Shown here: piece after piece, positions 36,754-42,339 of the stretch
Numbering within the stretch: the stretch's first letter is position 1
Layout: each line of letters starts with the position of its first letter
Source of the DNA: Treponema sp.
Lineage (GTDB): Bacteria > Spirochaetota > Spirochaetia > Treponematales > Treponemataceae
Direction of reading: 5' to 3'
Length of the DNA stretch: 52,011 bases
Assembly (NCBI GenBank): GCA_012520945.1
Contig: JAAYNH010000014.1
Coordinates: forward strand, 1-52,011
Notes under the pieces: generated by a model
What the model was told of the DNA's origin: nothing
Databases searched by the model: none
What the model saw: the letters and a program-made list of their open reading frames with translations, nothing else
Translations under genes and position numbers: made by a program

Positions 36754-36782
36754 TTCAATTTTTTATGTATATATGTTATAAT
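36754..36782 (+). promoter_or_regulatory. Predicted promoter of the nuclease gene giving a leaderless mRNA
   Basis: TTCAAT (36754-36759) and TATAAT (36777-36782) are 17 nt apart. The -10 ends 6 nt before the ATG at 36789, so transcription should begin at or next to the start codon. Confidence 0.6.
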
Positions 36783-36788
36783 TATGTA

Positions 36789-37643
36789 ATGAAATTAAAG
36801 CTATTTTTTATTCTTTTTTTTATTACAATTTTAGGAATAATTTTTTCTCAAAATAAAACTACAGAAAATGATGTTTTTGATAACCTTTTTATTGATAATC
36901 ATTTTAAAGTTGATGAAAAATTTTATATACCTATTTGTGAATGCAATATTAACGGAGAAAATGCAGAACGCAAATTAAACGACCATGAAATTGAACATTA
37001 TACGGGTTTTTCTCTCTGTTATCGTGAAAAATATGAACAGGCAGAATGGGTTGCATATAAATTGACCCGTGATGATTTAGTAAAAAAAGTTAATCGTTCT
37101 AGAAAATTCATACAAGATTATAATATTTCAACCGATTCTGCCACAACTGATGACTATCGGGATTCCGGTTATGATCGTGGCCATTTAGTACCGGCAGGAG
37201 ACATGGTACGAAGTTTTGTTACTATGAAGGATTCTTTTCGCATGAGTAATGTTTCGCCACAGCATCCAAAACTTAATCAAGGTCTTTGGGTAAAAGCAGA
37301 AGAACATGTGCGAAACTGGGCTCATTGGTATGGGACAGTCTACGTTATTACAGGTCCTATCTTGGAAAAAGAACCGGATGAATATGAAAGAATCGGTTAT
37401 AATAAAGTTGTTGTTCCTGAATACTTTTATAAAATAATGTTGGCCCCAAAATTAAAAAACGGTAAACAAATAGGTTGGAATAGCTTTGCAATAATCATGG
37501 AAAATCGAAATCTAGGCGGTAAATTAAAAGATTATGAAGTTTCAATTGATGAAATTGAAATGCGAACGGGATTGGATTTTTTTAGTTTACTTGATGATAA
37601 AACAGAAAATGAAATAGAAAGCTATATTTCTCAAAAAAAATAA
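36789..37643 (+). CDS. Secreted DNA/RNA non-specific endonuclease (NUC/EndA family)
   Basis: A sugar-non-specific nuclease acting in the periplasm or outside the cell, probably for nucleotide scavenging. The 284-residue protein has a signal peptide (MKLKLFFILFFITILGIIFS), the beta-beta-alpha-metal active site DRGHLVPAGDM with the catalytic His, and the metal-binding Asn in RMSNVSPQHPKLNQGLW. Family strands WVAYKLTRDDL and YVITGPILE are present. I chose the ATG at 36789 because it starts the signal peptide; an ATG at 36765 lies upstream of the predicted -10 element. There is no Shine-Dalgarno. It has its own terminator. Confidence 0.92.
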   Translation: MKLKLFFILFFITILGIIFSQNKTTENDVFDNLFIDNHFKVDEKFYIPICECNINGENAERKLNDHEIEHYTGFSLCYREKYEQAEWVAYKLTRDDLVKKVNRSRKFIQDYNISTDSATTDDYRDSGYDRGHLVPAGDMVRSFVTMKDSFRMSNVSPQHPKLNQGLWVKAEEHVRNWAHWYGTVYVITGPILEKEPDEYERIGYNKVVVPEYFYKIMLAPKLKNGKQIGWNSFAIIMENRNLGGKLKDYEVSIDEIEMRTGLDFFSLLDDKTENEIESYISQKK

Positions 37644-37780: not shown

Positions 37781-38749
37781 ATGACAGATTTGGAAATTCA
37801 AATGCGTAACATTGGAGTAATTCCGGTTGTTAAAATCGATGACGCTGCAAAAGCTGTTCCTTTGGCAAAAGCACTCATTGCCGGTGGAATTAACTGTGCA
37901 GAAGTTACATTTAGAACAGAAGCAGCGGCAGACGCTATTGCAGCAATAGCAAAAGCCTGTCCCGATATGTTAGTTGGTGCCGGCACTGTTATTAATGTTG
38001 AACTTGCAAAAAAAGCTATTGCAGCAGGTTCAAAATTTATCGTTTCTCCAGGCTTTAATCCTGAAGTAGTAGACTATTGTATTTCACAAAATGTAACAAT
38101 TATACCGGGTATTTCAAGTCCGTCACAAATAGAAGCCGCATTAGAAAAAGGCTTAACAACTCTCAAATTTTTTCCTGCAGAACAAGCCGGTGGCGTTCCT
38201 ATGTTAAATGCACTTGGAGGACCTTTCCCTCAAGTTACATTTATGCCAACCGGAGGAATTAATGCAAATAACGTTGGCGAATATGCAAAACTCAAAAACG
38301 TATTAGCATGTGGCGGAAGCTGGATGGTTAAAGCTGACATGATTGATGCAGAAAACTGGGACGGTATCACTCAATTATGTAAAGAAGCTATGAAAGCAAT
38401 TCATGGTTTCACATTTGCACACATGGGTATTAACAGTGAAAACGAAGAAAAAGCCATGGATGCTGCTAAGCTTTTTGAACTTTTCGGTTTTAATATGAAA
38501 GTTGGAAATAGCTCAATTTTTAGTAATACAGAAATTGAAATTATGAAAAAACCATATCGTGGAACAAACGGTCACATAGGAATTAAAACATATAACGTTG
38601 ACCGAGCACTTGCTTACCTAAAACAATTTGGTTTTAATCCGGTAATGGAAACTGCAGCATATATTGGTACTCCTGAAAAATCAGGTCTTAAAGTTGTATA
38701 CTTAGACAAGGAAATTGGTGGCTTTGCTATTCATCTTGTAAAAGCATAA
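37781..38749 (+). CDS. eda: KDPG/KHG aldolase (Eda) fused to a C-terminal VOC-like domain
   Basis: Cleaves 2-keto-3-deoxy-6-phosphogluconate (or 4-hydroxy-2-oxoglutarate) to pyruvate and an aldehyde. Residues 1-205 are a complete class I Eda barrel with E41 and R45 (CAEVTFRTE), GAGTVIN, the Schiff-base K129 (TLKFFPAEQAGG) and a C-terminal phosphate loop (MPTGGINANN). Residues of about 208-322 are an added domain with two beta-alpha-beta-beta-beta-like halves (FAHMGINSENEEKAM, then NGHIGIKTYNVDRALAYL), resembling glyoxalase/VOC modules. Its role is unknown; it may be structural or modify the product. AAGGAG precedes the ATG by 6 nt. Confidence 0.9.
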   Translation: MTDLEIQMRNIGVIPVVKIDDAAKAVPLAKALIAGGINCAEVTFRTEAAADAIAAIAKACPDMLVGAGTVINVELAKKAIAAGSKFIVSPGFNPEVVDYCISQNVTIIPGISSPSQIEAALEKGLTTLKFFPAEQAGGVPMLNALGGPFPQVTFMPTGGINANNVGEYAKLKNVLACGGSWMVKADMIDAENWDGITQLCKEAMKAIHGFTFAHMGINSENEEKAMDAAKLFELFGFNMKVGNSSIFSNTEIEIMKKPYRGTNGHIGIKTYNVDRALAYLKQFGFNPVMETAAYIGTPEKSGLKVVYLDKEIGGFAIHLVKA

Positions 38750-38753
38750 TTAT

Positions 38754-38792
38754 AAAAAAAAGGGTTCATCGTAATGATGTTCCCTTTTTTTT
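38754..38792 (+). terminator. Bidirectional terminator between eda and the ftsH-like gene
   Basis: AAAAAAAAGGG pairs with CCCTTTTTTTT around an inner CATC/GATG stem. It serves both converging transcripts. Confidence 0.75.
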
Positions 38793-38804
38793 AGATTAAT
38801 TTGT

Positions 38805-39947
38805 TTATAATTCTTTTAATGCTTTTTCAATATGACTTAACTCAATAACATTTTGATTTTCTTGGCTAGCATACATTGCAGCTCTGTTTAAAACACTTTC
38901 AATATGAGCACATGAAAATCCGCTAAACTTATCTGCTAATTTTTCAACATTAATATTTTCATGTAAAGATTTATTTGTGCCATATTTTATTATCAATTCA
39001 ATGCGAGCGTTTTTATCAGGATACGGTACAGTATATTTTACATCAAATCTTCCCGGCCTTATCAATGCTTCATCAAGTGCTGTACGACTATTTGTTGCGG
39101 CTAAAATCAAAACACCGTCATTAACCGTAAAACCGTCCAACTCATTTAATAAAGCAGTTACAATACGAGTATTCTCCGTTTCGATGGCAGAACCTGAGTA
39201 ATTTCGTTTTGTGCCGATTCCGTCAAACTCATCAATAAAAACTATGCATGGAGCATTTTTGCGTGCTTTTCTAAAAAGCATTTTTACTTTAGCCGGCCCA
39301 ATTGACATAAACATACTTTGAAAATCAGTTGCTTTTGCAGCAATAAAATTAACTGCGGATTCACCTGCTAAAGCACGTGCGAACAATGTTTTTCCATTAC
39401 CGGGTGCACCTTCAAGTAAAATACCCTTTGGCATTCTAATACCTTGCTTTTTAAAATTATTCGAATTTTTCATCATTTGTGCTATTTGTATCATCGATTT
39501 TTTTAAATCTTCCATACCAACAATATCATCAAACTTTACATTAGTTTTACGAATAATTTTAAAAGTACTAGGACTAATAAATCTTTTAAAGGCAAAAATT
39601 ATTGCAAAAATAAAAATACCATAAAAAATTATATCAAAAATTAAAGTAAAAATTTCAGAAGATTTTTGTTCGATTTTTACAAAACTGCCGGAAAGCAAAA
39701 GCTTTTCAACAATATCAGGAGTTTTAGGATTTTGCACAAAAAACTTTTCTTCACTGCCATCTAAAAAAAACACAATTTTTTCATCATTAACAAAAGCATT
39801 TATAATTTTTTTTTCACCTAAATATTGAATAAAATCAGCATATGACATTTCTGTAGGTTTGGGTACAAAAAAATTATATGCAAAAAAACTTAGTGCAATC
39901 AAAATTACGAAAATAAATATTTTTTGAACTAAATTGAATTTTTTCAT
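38805..39947 (-). CDS. FtsH-like membrane AAA+ ATPase lacking the M41 protease domain
   Basis: A 380-residue protein with the FtsH layout up to the ATPase, then a stop. It has membrane segment 1 (about 9-27), a small periplasmic FtsH-ext-like domain (about 30-97, SYADFIQYLGEKK), membrane segment 2 (about 100-121) and an AAA+ module with Walker A GAPGNGKT (180-187), Walker B IVFIDE (235-240) and the arginine-finger box ALIRPGRFD. The pore loop SMFMSIG keeps its Phe. The sequence ends in the AAA lid, with no HEXXH zinc protease domain (FtsH is normally about 600-650 residues). No remnant of M41 is visible downstream before the terminator. It is 2 nt after fliG1. Likely an unfoldase or remodeller rather than a protease. 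Confidence 0.88.
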   Translation of the reverse strand: MKKFNLVQKIFIFVILIALSFFAYNFFVPKPTEMSYADFIQYLGEKKIINAFVNDEKIVFFLDGSEEKFFVQNPKTPDIVEKLLLSGSFVKIEQKSSEIFTLIFDIIFYGIFIFAIIFAFKRFISPSTFKIIRKTNVKFDDIVGMEDLKKSMIQIAQMMKNSNNFKKQGIRMPKGILLEGAPGNGKTLFARALAGESAVNFIAAKATDFQSMFMSIGPAKVKMLFRKARKNAPCIVFIDEFDGIGTKRNYSGSAIETENTRIVTALLNELDGFTVNDGVLILAATNSRTALDEALIRPGRFDVKYTVPYPDKNARIELIIKYGTNKSLHENINVEKLADKFSGFSCAHIESVLNRAAMYASQENQNVIELSHIEKALKEL

Positions 39948-39949
39948 TT

Positions 39950-41179
39950 TTATACATACACCTCATCATCACGATTTAAAATTATAAGCTCCCCTTTTTC
40001 CCAACTACGTCGTAAAGAGGACATAAATAAATTTGTTGCTTCATCAACGTCTTTTTTAAGCATAGGTTTACGCAATTTTTCTTCATCTAAAATAAGTTGT
40101 CCTCTACCACTTGAAACATTACTCAAAATTTTTCCACGAAAATCATCTGTTTTTCCTGCAATAATATATGCAATTTGTGTGTCCATCATAGTTTGTAATT
40201 TATTTTGTAACCACTTATCATCACAATTAATAAAATCTTCTGTTGTAAAAAGTCTATTTTTTATATCATATGCTAATTCAGGATCATTTTTACCTAAAGA
40301 AGATAAAATTGCATTTTCATTATCTGAAGACATTTTTTTCAAAATATTTGCTAAAGCATTACGACCATCAATAATATTTGCTTTTTGTGTATTTATGTTA
40401 TAAATTTTTTCATGCATAGCAGAATCTATACGACGTATAATATCAGGCGACATTTTTGTTAATTTTGCCAATCTCTGAATTACTTCGGTTTTTTCTTCTG
40501 CCGGTAATGAACCAATATAACTTGCAGCAACTTTTGGTTCCAAATGAGACAAAACAAGTGCACGAACGGGAGCAGATTCATCTATTAAAAGCTGTGCAAT
40601 TCTTTCTGCATCCAAATCTTTCAAATATTCAAATGGTTTACCTTCAGGAAATGCAACTGTTTTTTCAATCATTTGATTTGCACGTTCTGTACCGAATGCT
40701 TTTACTAAAATATCGCGTGCAGTGTCTACACCACCGGTATGACGTGACTGGTCCACAAGATTTTGAAATTCCGCTAAAATTACATTTGCTTCCTCTGTAT
40801 CAACAGAACGAATAGAAGCAATTTCAGGAATAATTTTTTCAGTTTGTTCAACTGTTAGATGAGGGATTATTTTTGCAGCTTCATCTATGCCTATTAAAAG
40901 TAAAAATTTTGCAACACGTCGATACACACTTTCACCACCAAAAGTTTTTTTCTCATCACTTTTGGTAACTTTAATCATGCCATATCTGTCCATATATTCA
41001 CTAATAGGTTTTGCAGGATTAACATCATTGTTTTTTTTTAGTTTATTTGAAACTTCATTTAAAACGTTTTTTTGAAAACTTTTGTTTTCTTCATTTTGTA
41101 TAATTTGTTTTTCTTCTTTTTTGTTTTCAGATTGTGTTGCTTTAAAATATGCTTTTAATCTGTGGTCATTTGTATTCAT
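39950..41179 (-). CDS. fliG1: FliG-family flagellar switch protein (FliG1-like paralogue)
   Basis: FliG couples stator torque to the rotor; spirochaetes carry two copies, and FliG2 is the canonical one. In this 409-residue protein, residues 1-85 are a charged, unstructured extension. From about 86 it shows FliG N and middle domains (VYRRVAKFLLLIGIDEAAKII, split here as VYRRVAKF and LLLIGIDEAAKII, then LSHLEPKVAASYIGSLP with EVIQRLAKL) and a C-terminal domain (KILSNVSSGRGQLILDEEKL, then VDEATNLFMSSLRRSWEKGEL). The long extension and a divergent charged C-terminal region point to FliG1. In Borrelia FliG1 is polar and affects motility. It lies 24 nt after a small membrane protein gene and 2 nt before the ftsH-like gene. 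Confidence 0.88.
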   Translation of the reverse strand: MNTNDHRLKAYFKATQSENKKEEKQIIQNEENKSFQKNVLNEVSNKLKKNNDVNPAKPISEYMDRYGMIKVTKSDEKKTFGGESVYRRVAKFLLLIGIDEAAKIIPHLTVEQTEKIIPEIASIRSVDTEEANVILAEFQNLVDQSRHTGGVDTARDILVKAFGTERANQMIEKTVAFPEGKPFEYLKDLDAERIAQLLIDESAPVRALVLSHLEPKVAASYIGSLPAEEKTEVIQRLAKLTKMSPDIIRRIDSAMHEKIYNINTQKANIIDGRNALANILKKMSSDNENAILSSLGKNDPELAYDIKNRLFTTEDFINCDDKWLQNKLQTMMDTQIAYIIAGKTDDFRGKILSNVSSGRGQLILDEEKLRKPMLKKDVDEATNLFMSSLRRSWEKGELIILNRDDEVYV

Positions 41180-41203: not shown

Positions 41204-41500
41204 CTATCGACGTGTTCTAAAAATCATAATTAAAAATGCAGCAATATAAAAAACCGGAGGTATAATTGTAAAAAATAATGTAGATAAAGGAATATTAAAT
41301 AATTCAATACTTTCTAGGTTAACAATACCAAAAGCCACCATCATTTCATAAACAATACTTGTGTAAGAAGTAACAGCTCCTGCAACTAAACACATCCAGG
41401 CTAGATCGCGTGTTTTTGACCATAAAGTTATGGCAAAAAAAGCAGTAAGTCCACCTAAAAAAAGTTTTATAACATACAAAATTAACTGAGAATTTTCCAT
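41204..41500 (-). CDS. Small membrane protein with three transmembrane segments
   Basis: A 98-residue protein with hydrophobic segments at about 6-24, 34-57 and 70-92 and a basic C-terminus (FRTRR), suggesting the C-terminus is cytoplasmic. Family not recognised. A very strong ribosome site (AAGGAGG) precedes the ATG at 41500. It sits between an unknown gene and fliG1 in a minus-strand gene run, so it may be tied to the flagellar motor or to the FtsH-like ATPase. Confidence 0.75.
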   Translation of the reverse strand: MENSQLILYVIKLFLGGLTAFFAITLWSKTRDLAWMCLVAGAVTSYTSIVYEMMVAFGIVNLESIELFNIPLSTLFFTIIPPVFYIAAFLIMIFRTRR

Positions 41501-41536
41501 TTTTGCCTCCTTCTTTTAATTATAGTATGAAAAAAA

Positions 41537-42292
41537 TTATTCAAATTTTAAATCTCCTAAATTTGCACCTATTGGAAGAATAGAAGGAACATCATAAAAA
41601 GGAGAAAGTAATGCACCATTTTTTAATGATTTTTTCCAAAAATCTACATATTCATTATTTTTGCATTTTGGTGTTAAATAACATCCATCTCTGTAAAAAT
41701 ATTTTAACACGACTTTATCAAATTTTGCAAAATCTTTTTCAGAAAGTAGTTGCATCCTTAAAATTAAATCATAAATTGAACGAGCATAACTTGCAGCTAA
41801 TGGCGACGGAATTGATGTAGCTCCAAATTCTGCATACGAATTTACAATTTTTGTACTATCAGTAAAAATAATAAAAACACTTTTCCCCCAAGGAAATGGC
41901 GGATAAAATTTAAAAGCTTCAAATGAACATAAATTATTATTGATATTTGACCACGGACGCCAAATAGGCAAGTTCAAAAATTTTTCAGGAAGAACATTTT
42001 CTTGAAAAATTGCAAAGGAAATAGATTTTGGGAAAAGTTTTTTTACAGATTTTTCCAATTGCAGTGCTTTGTCGGTTTTAAAATTACCCAACACACCACA
42101 ATCAAAAACATTTTTAAAAAGCATTTGACTTTTCCCGTGTCGCCATCCTAAAATTGCACGACCGTTTTCTTGAAACATATCCGTTAAACGAACGCCTTTT
42201 GCAGTATAAAGATAATAAAAACGTGCTCTTTTAACACTGCCATATAAAGAAAAAATTTCTTCTTTGTAATCAAAATTAAAAAAGTTTTTCAT
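41537..42292 (-). CDS. Unrecognised 251-residue protein
   Basis: I do not recognise this family. No signal peptide or membrane segment follows the ATG at 42292, which I prefer to a TTG ten codons upstream because a GGA-type site precedes it. The N-terminal stretch ARFYYLYTAKGVRLTDMF then GRAILGWRHG is distinctive and reminiscent of the entry segment of fold-type I PLP enzymes, but no PLP lysine box is visible. A Pro/aromatic-rich middle (LPIWRPWSNI, YPPFPWGKSVFI) follows. It lies 47 nt after gatB and 36 nt before the small membrane protein. Confidence 0.6.
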   Translation of the reverse strand: MKNFFNFDYKEEIFSLYGSVKRARFYYLYTAKGVRLTDMFQENGRAILGWRHGKSQMLFKNVFDCGVLGNFKTDKALQLEKSVKKLFPKSISFAIFQENVLPEKFLNLPIWRPWSNINNNLCSFEAFKFYPPFPWGKSVFIIFTDSTKIVNSYAEFGATSIPSPLAASYARSIYDLILRMQLLSEKDFAKFDKVVLKYFYRDGCYLTPKCKNNEYVDFWKKSLKNGALLSPFYDVPSILPIGANLGDLKFE

Positions 42293-42339
42293 TAACAAAA
42301 TTCCAAAAATACAAAAAGACAAATGAATTTTTGTCTACA

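Follow-up and report, generated by a model that had tools for sequence, protein, structure and literature searches.

A protease-less FtsH-type membrane AAA+ protein and its family in Treponema

A genuine protease-less membrane AAA+ protein of the FtsH type is encoded in the stretch of DNA analysed here (the window: 52,011 nucleotides of Treponema sp., contig JAAYNH010000014.1 of assembly GCA_012520945.1), and this identity was confirmed by its domains, motifs and modelled fold. Judged by tree and alignment, the protein belongs to a family of its own, apart from all spirochaete FtsHs tested. The family is supposed to be a stand-alone, membrane-anchored AAA+ unfoldase or dislocase of FtsH type, acting without proteolysis, and the probability of this reading is put at about 0.55.

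The gene and its product

The host contig (C86) is one of the 119 contigs of a 2.19-Mb assembly that is 95% complete. The features of the locus are as follows (positions in the window).

38805-39947, minus strand: protease-less FtsH-type AAA+ ATPase, whole gene (open reading frame list); 380 aa with FtsH_ext, AAA and AAA_lid_3 and no M41 (Pfam); orthologue in 137 of 274 genomes, one clade
39950-41179, minus strand: fliG1-type paralogue, 409 aa with FliG_N/M/C (Pfam); neighbour in the window genome only, outside the conserved unit
39867-39941, minus strand: transmembrane (TM) helix 1, residues 3-27; AlphaFold2 helix, hydrophobic in all orthologues
39663-39866, minus strand: periplasmic FtsH_ext domain, residues 28-95; Pfam FtsH_ext at 11-79, alpha/beta in the AlphaFold2 model; mean pairwise identity 35%
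39576-39662, minus strand: TM helix 2, residues 96-124; AlphaFold2 helix
39018-39533, minus strand: AAA core, residues 139-310; Walker A GAPGNGKT, pore-1 SMFMSIG, Walker B FIDEFD, signature RNYSGSAIETENTRIVTALLNELDGF, sensor 1 AATN and RPGRFD; from Pfam AAA, invariant columns and the comparison with 46 FtsHs
38808-39017, minus strand: AAA lid and C-terminus, residues 311-380; Pfam AAA_lid_3 at 331-375 and the C-termini of 46 members; the protein stops where FtsH runs on into M41
38750-38804, no strand: convergent intergenic stretch, 55 bp; terminator-like inverted repeat GGGttCATCgtaatGATGttCCC and a T run, read by eye

In the Pfam search the protein matches FtsH_ext (PF06480; 33.2 bits, above the cut-off of 25.5), AAA (PF00004; residues 176-309, 1.5e-34) and AAA_lid_3, while Peptidase_M41 (PF01434) is absent. 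The FtsH model TIGR01241 aligns over its positions 3-400 of 598 only, and gives 267 bits for the window protein and 255-273 bits for the orthologues, all below the equivalog cut-off of 600. The ATPase keeps the Walker A and B motifs, sensor 1, the arginine fingers of RPGRFD and the pore residue F213, and in 33 aligned orthologues these motifs are mostly invariant or more than 90% conserved. Invariant in all 33 are the Walker B Glu240, the DGF (271-273) of ELDGF, and Arg297 and Arg300 of RPGRFD; Phe213 is conserved in at least 90%, and one member, L041, lacks the pore Phe at that position. In the AlphaFold2 model (mean pLDDT 86), long helices at residues 3-27 and 96-124 flank a small alpha/beta domain and are followed by the AAA module, whose closest structural matches are FtsH ATPase domains (4ww0, Z 29.9; 1iy2, Z 29.7, rmsd 1.4 over 245 residues). 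The Ycf2-FtsHi motor subunit 8xku_E matches the model at Z 28.9, and plant and algal FtsHi and Ycf2 are the best Foldseek matches after the E. coli FtsH model. In addition, the AAA core matches the PAN structure 3h4m (Z 28.2) and the NCBIfam model NF003069 (214 bits).

A sequence-only reading of positions 38805-41179, which span both genes, had described the N-terminal part of an FtsH with two TM helices, an AAA+ module with intact Walker A/B and pore Phe, and no HEXXH; Pfam, AlphaFold2 and the motif alignment bear this out. It had also placed the gene 2 nt downstream of a fliG1-like gene, and in the open reading frame list the ATPase does start 2 nt after the fliG1-type stop codon. An M41 domain concealed downstream by a frameshift, which it had allowed for, was not found: the gene lies inside a 52-kb contig and only 55 bp separate its stop codon from a convergent KDPG-aldolase gene, so that no M41 part can follow, and short orthologues occur in 137 of 274 genomes. 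The KDPG/KHG aldolase itself (37781-38749, plus strand) is extended at its C-terminus by about 115 aa that have no Pfam family match, and its relatives near the ATPase gene in L077, L083 and L085 are 207 aa long and are without this extension. Further along, 36765-37643 (plus strand) encodes a DNA/RNA non-specific endonuclease whose N-terminus includes a hydrophobic segment; the enzyme is probably secreted or membrane-anchored.

The orthologous family and its relation to known AAA+ proteins

Search of 274 Treponemataceae genomes at E <= 1e-75 gave orthologues 47-65% identical to the ATPase in 137. Thus the suggestion that relatives might carry FtsH-type AAA proteins of about 380 residues held good, and the conserved linkage to fliG1 suggested along with it did not. 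Named carriers include Treponema bryantii NK4A124 and B25, and many others are metagenome-assembled genomes from rumen, horse faeces and other herbivore guts. The open frames are mostly 378-470 aa, sequence before the start codon included; a stop codon falls inside the match in only 2 of the 137, and the C-terminal end point is identical in all 46 members examined. HExxH is absent from all ten further orthologue frames inspected and present in every FtsH frame inspected alongside. Pairwise dN/dS is 0.06-0.26 for the pairs with measurable dS, and the family is under strong purifying selection. Mean pairwise identity is 82% in the AAA core, 35% in the periplasmic domain and 23% in TM helix 1; such a difference between core and periplasmic domain is what a constant motor with a variable outer face would give.

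A maximum-likelihood tree was built from 17 of the short proteins and 46 FtsHs from spirochaetes (a sample confined to that phylum). One branch with 100/100 support splits the two groups, and the branch that parts the short proteins from the two kinds of FtsH found alongside them is very long. Recent origin from either Treponema FtsH type was rejected on these grounds, the separate clade and the long branch. At 39 positions the family and the 46 FtsHs each have a fixed residue, but not the same one; these positions lie most densely at 254-270, which we take to lie near the inter-subunit region. The family signature is FIDEFDGIGTxRNYSGSAIETENTRIVTALLNELDGF, and the sequence motif used to denote the family is ETENTRIVTALLNELDGF. 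Pore loop 1 reads ESMFMAIGPxKVKLLF in the family versus VEMFVGVGASRVRDLF in FtsH (MFVGVG to MFMAIG); after Walker B, from FDGIGT to the end of the signature, FtsH has a different sequence, and in the 46-FtsH comparison its pore loop 2 is replaced by SGSAIETEN.

A diverged member of 383 aa (L235, 7168-8319; G587:C17) was found in a genome from another family of the same class, with SFMAVG and IDKENNRIITSLLNELDGF. It sits on a long end branch, so its exact placement in the tree is unsure; contamination of that assembly (2%) could conceivably be its source, and transfer, or old loss elsewhere, is also possible. A single scan of the GTDB species collection gave 193 relatives, the best 80 of which are all from spirochaetes. 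None of the genomes tested is without a complete FtsH; the window genome has FtsHs of 615 and 681 aa. The idea that the short protein replaces one FtsH copy was rejected for want of a consistent pattern: in genus g4 the carrier G003 and the non-carrier G034 have one full FtsH each, and other carriers have two.

With FtsH (TIGR01241, M41) the ATPase shares two TM helices, FtsH_ext, the AAA core and lid, the second region of homology (SRH) with its arginine fingers and the pore Phe, at 35-40% identity over the common part. It differs in that the entire M41 domain is gone, in the differently fixed pore loops 1 and 2 and the 39 positions, in its separate clade and in its score of 267 versus 600 bits. 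The ATPase is consequently FtsH-like by architecture and fold, and is not an FtsH protease by M41, equivalog cut-off and tree. PAN lacks TM helices; it has coiled-coil/OB N-domains and docks through a C-terminal motif. The PAN/Rpt proteasomal ATPases resemble the window protein in AAA fold and overall size (PAN models of NCBIfam have 362-405 positions), but the latter has TM helices and FtsH_ext. In plastids, the Ycf2-FtsHi complex is an import motor which does not require protease activity (PMC8943139, PMC9020784, PMC11266112), and FtsHi1, 2, 4 and 5 have a mutated HEXXH zinc site in an otherwise FtsH-like layout (PMC8197885, PMC9020784, PMC11266112). FtsHi/Ycf2 and the ATPase are alike as FtsH-derived membrane AAA+ proteins without a zinc protease site, in the ATPase by absence of M41 and with an activity that is predicted. 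However, the ATPase ends after the lid and misses the C-terminal M41 region altogether, so it is not one of FtsHi1, 2, 4 and 5, which are described with a mutated site and not a missing domain; moreover, FtsHi/Ycf2 form hetero-complexes, whereas the ATPase would more probably form a ring of its own, and they belong to a eukaryotic plastid setting and seem to have arisen independently. The FtsH-ternary conflict-system ATPase has two FtsH-type AAA domains and is encoded beside MoxR and vWA (PMC7159879). It too is an FtsH-type AAA+ protein outside the housekeeping protease, but the window family has one AAA domain, two TM helices and no conserved neighbours. Searches of the open-access literature turned up no description of a protease-less FtsH relative from spirochaetes, those discussed being from plant plastids.

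The fliG1 neighbour and the wider gene context

The sequence-only reading had dedicated the ATPase to the flagellar motor, and the wider gene context contradicts it. The window neighbour is a divergent paralogue of the FliG1 type, which scores 198 bits against TIGR00207 and misses the cut-off, while the canonical FliG of the same genome scores 494 bits and lies on contig C64. Neighbourhoods were taken up to 9 kb on each side of 45 orthologues (less at contig ends) and, with the window, the genes of these 46 loci were clustered. A fliG gene adjoins the ATPase in 1 of the 46, namely the window. When FliG was compared by BLAST with every open reading frame of the loci, matches came from the window locus only. 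Coordinates were also compared by eye in 80 genomes listed with both genes: ATPase and fliG1 are on different contigs in 77, and are separated by about 208 kb (G085), 1.6 Mb (G096) and 350 kb (G129) in the remaining three, so that no second linked case occurs among them. FliG1 is found in 252 of 274 genomes at E <= 1e-60, many without the ATPase, which is in 137; furthermore, G587 (97% complete), with its diverged ATPase homologue, has no FliG at all, although six carriers searched alongside have both FliG types.

The window order (gatB-)orf261-orf98-fliG1 is also found in G012, G061, G029 and G014, which belong to other genera and all lack the ATPase; because the order exists without it, the ATPase gene is probably a late arrival behind fliG1 in the window lineage. 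In the three of these loci that were read further, the genes after fliG1, annotated by eye, are ribulose-phosphate-epimerase-like (L121) or ribosomal L21-like (L117 and L120). In the window itself a Shine-Dalgarno-like GAGGTG stretch lies inside the fliG1 end upstream of the ATPase, and from this and the 2-nt gap the two genes may be co-transcribed there. On this comparison of genomes the adjacency is a one-off, with no sign of a flagellar job. Separately, orf98 (98 aa, membrane-like) and orf261 (261 aa), at 41204-42322 on the minus strand, have no Pfam or NCBIfam match; they keep their place upstream of fliG1 in the four genomes named above, are thus conserved fliG1 neighbours and may be FliG1-linked.

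No partner gene of any kind is conserved in the 46 loci. In 26 of them the upstream gene is on the opposite strand, which obliges the copies there to have a promoter to themselves; together with the lack of a conserved neighbour this fits a self-sufficient gene. Heat-shock, phage and plasmid connections were examined and rejected. There is no CIRCE match at <=5 mismatches upstream of the 46 copies that would point to heat-shock regulation, and phage carriage was not found in viral contigs. The 349 plasmid matches are all below 60% identity, the 20 listed being at 30-34% and mostly annotated as FtsH. Two that are labelled 'AAA family ATPase' or 'hypothetical protein' are not short: they are FtsH-like proteins of 591 aa (L266, 4944-6719) and 627 aa (L267, 5001-6884) on large plasmids of Alkaliphilus and Jeotgalibacillus. 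As for defence systems, the matches obtained, to models of IetA and TRIP13, were no more than generic AAA ones, the IetA (PADLOC) models matching the AAA core at 126 bits, as expected for a classical AAA domain. The anti-phage ATPase IetA has the subtilisin-like IetS encoded beside it as a partner, and in the 46 loci no neighbour is conserved.

Proposed mechanism, alternatives and meaning

The motifs of ATP hydrolysis, arginine fingers, DGF and pore are intact, the membrane part is of the FtsH type and the protease is lost; together these features suggest an ATP-driven pulling ring that does not cut. Six copies, each with two TM helices, would probably form the ring at the inner membrane, with the small periplasmic domain on the opposite side of the membrane. 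Against such a ring stands the part that M41 plays in holding FtsH hexamers together, since the family has no M41. ATP hydrolysis would move the pore loops with the conserved Phe213, and these would draw proteins in or near the membrane into the cytosolic pore. Since M41 is missing, the polypeptide would exit on the far side unfolded and uncut; it could then regain its fold, take another route or fall to a different protease. We infer hexamerisation, translocation, the kind of substrate and the direction of pulling from likeness to FtsH, and the job would be general remodelling of membrane proteins and not service to one machine. Since a complete FtsH occurs in every genome tested, the two presumably share the membrane; since pore loops 1 and 2 differ from those of FtsH, translocation may be altered.

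The notion of a broken or misassembled ftsH gene, with the ATPase as its first half, is refuted. The assembly is fragmented into 119 contigs, and a different FtsH of the same genome is split at the ends of contigs C59 and C108, but the window gene is internal to its contig with a convergent gene 55 bp downstream, and its short orthologues, Treponema bryantii isolates included, share one end point in 46 of 46 and are under purifying selection. The split FtsH of the window genome (G000; L003, L004) consists of an N-terminal part abnormally joined to an M41 fragment (C59:8969-9851) and an M41 tail (C108:1-229), and has probably arisen from misassembly at the conserved AAA region. A membrane AAA+ remodeller coupled to FliG1 for the assembly or turnover of the flagellar motor is very improbable. 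The 2-nt gap makes co-transcription likely in the window, but synteny contradicts this role, with adjacency in one locus of 46, no second case in 80 genomes, FliG1 common without the ATPase, a homologue in a genome without fliG and the gatB-orf261-orf98-fliG1 order existing on its own.

Alternatively, the ATPase might act in trans as the feeding partner of a distinct soluble peptidase, on the model of PAN with the proteasome or ClpX with ClpP. Its AAA core resembles PAN, but the 46 C-termini, compared by eye, have no common docking motif such as HbYX, nor do the 46 loci conserve a gene that could encode the peptidase or anything else; such feeding is improbable. Less improbable, and still unlikely, is that the ATPase is a non-proteolytic subunit of mixed hexamers with full-length FtsH, lowering or redirecting proteolysis. 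Complete FtsH is at hand in all genomes tested, the arginine fingers that act across subunits are retained, and plant FtsHi proteins do form hetero-complexes with FtsH12 and Ycf2 (PMC9020784). The great length of the branch between the family and the two kinds of FtsH in its carriers speaks against it, as do the 39 differently fixed positions, densest at 254-270: a change of the contact region argues for an own ring, and the wholesale change in the SRH/pore-2 stretch makes such a ring more likely than a mixed hexamer.

The preferred reading thus remains the stand-alone unfoldase. A further step, which is tentative and to which we give somewhat less than even odds, would make the family a new bacterial one of protease-free FtsH-type membrane hexamers that work in gut spirochaetes as dislocases of membrane proteins in their own right, a functional counterpart of the chloroplast FtsHi motor or of mitochondrial Msp1-type extractors. 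A misleading flagellar annotation, invited by the chance position beside fliG1, is removed. In the usual view, FtsH is a motor firmly joined to its protease; this family keeps the membrane-anchored motor only, beside an intact FtsH in the same cell. It offers a simple natural system for the role of an FtsH motor without cutting, hitherto studied mainly in chloroplasts, and the question is testable because Treponema bryantii, a named isolate, carries the gene. Many gut Treponema bacteria conserve what is predicted to be a protein-unfolding motor that resembles FtsH minus its cutting half.
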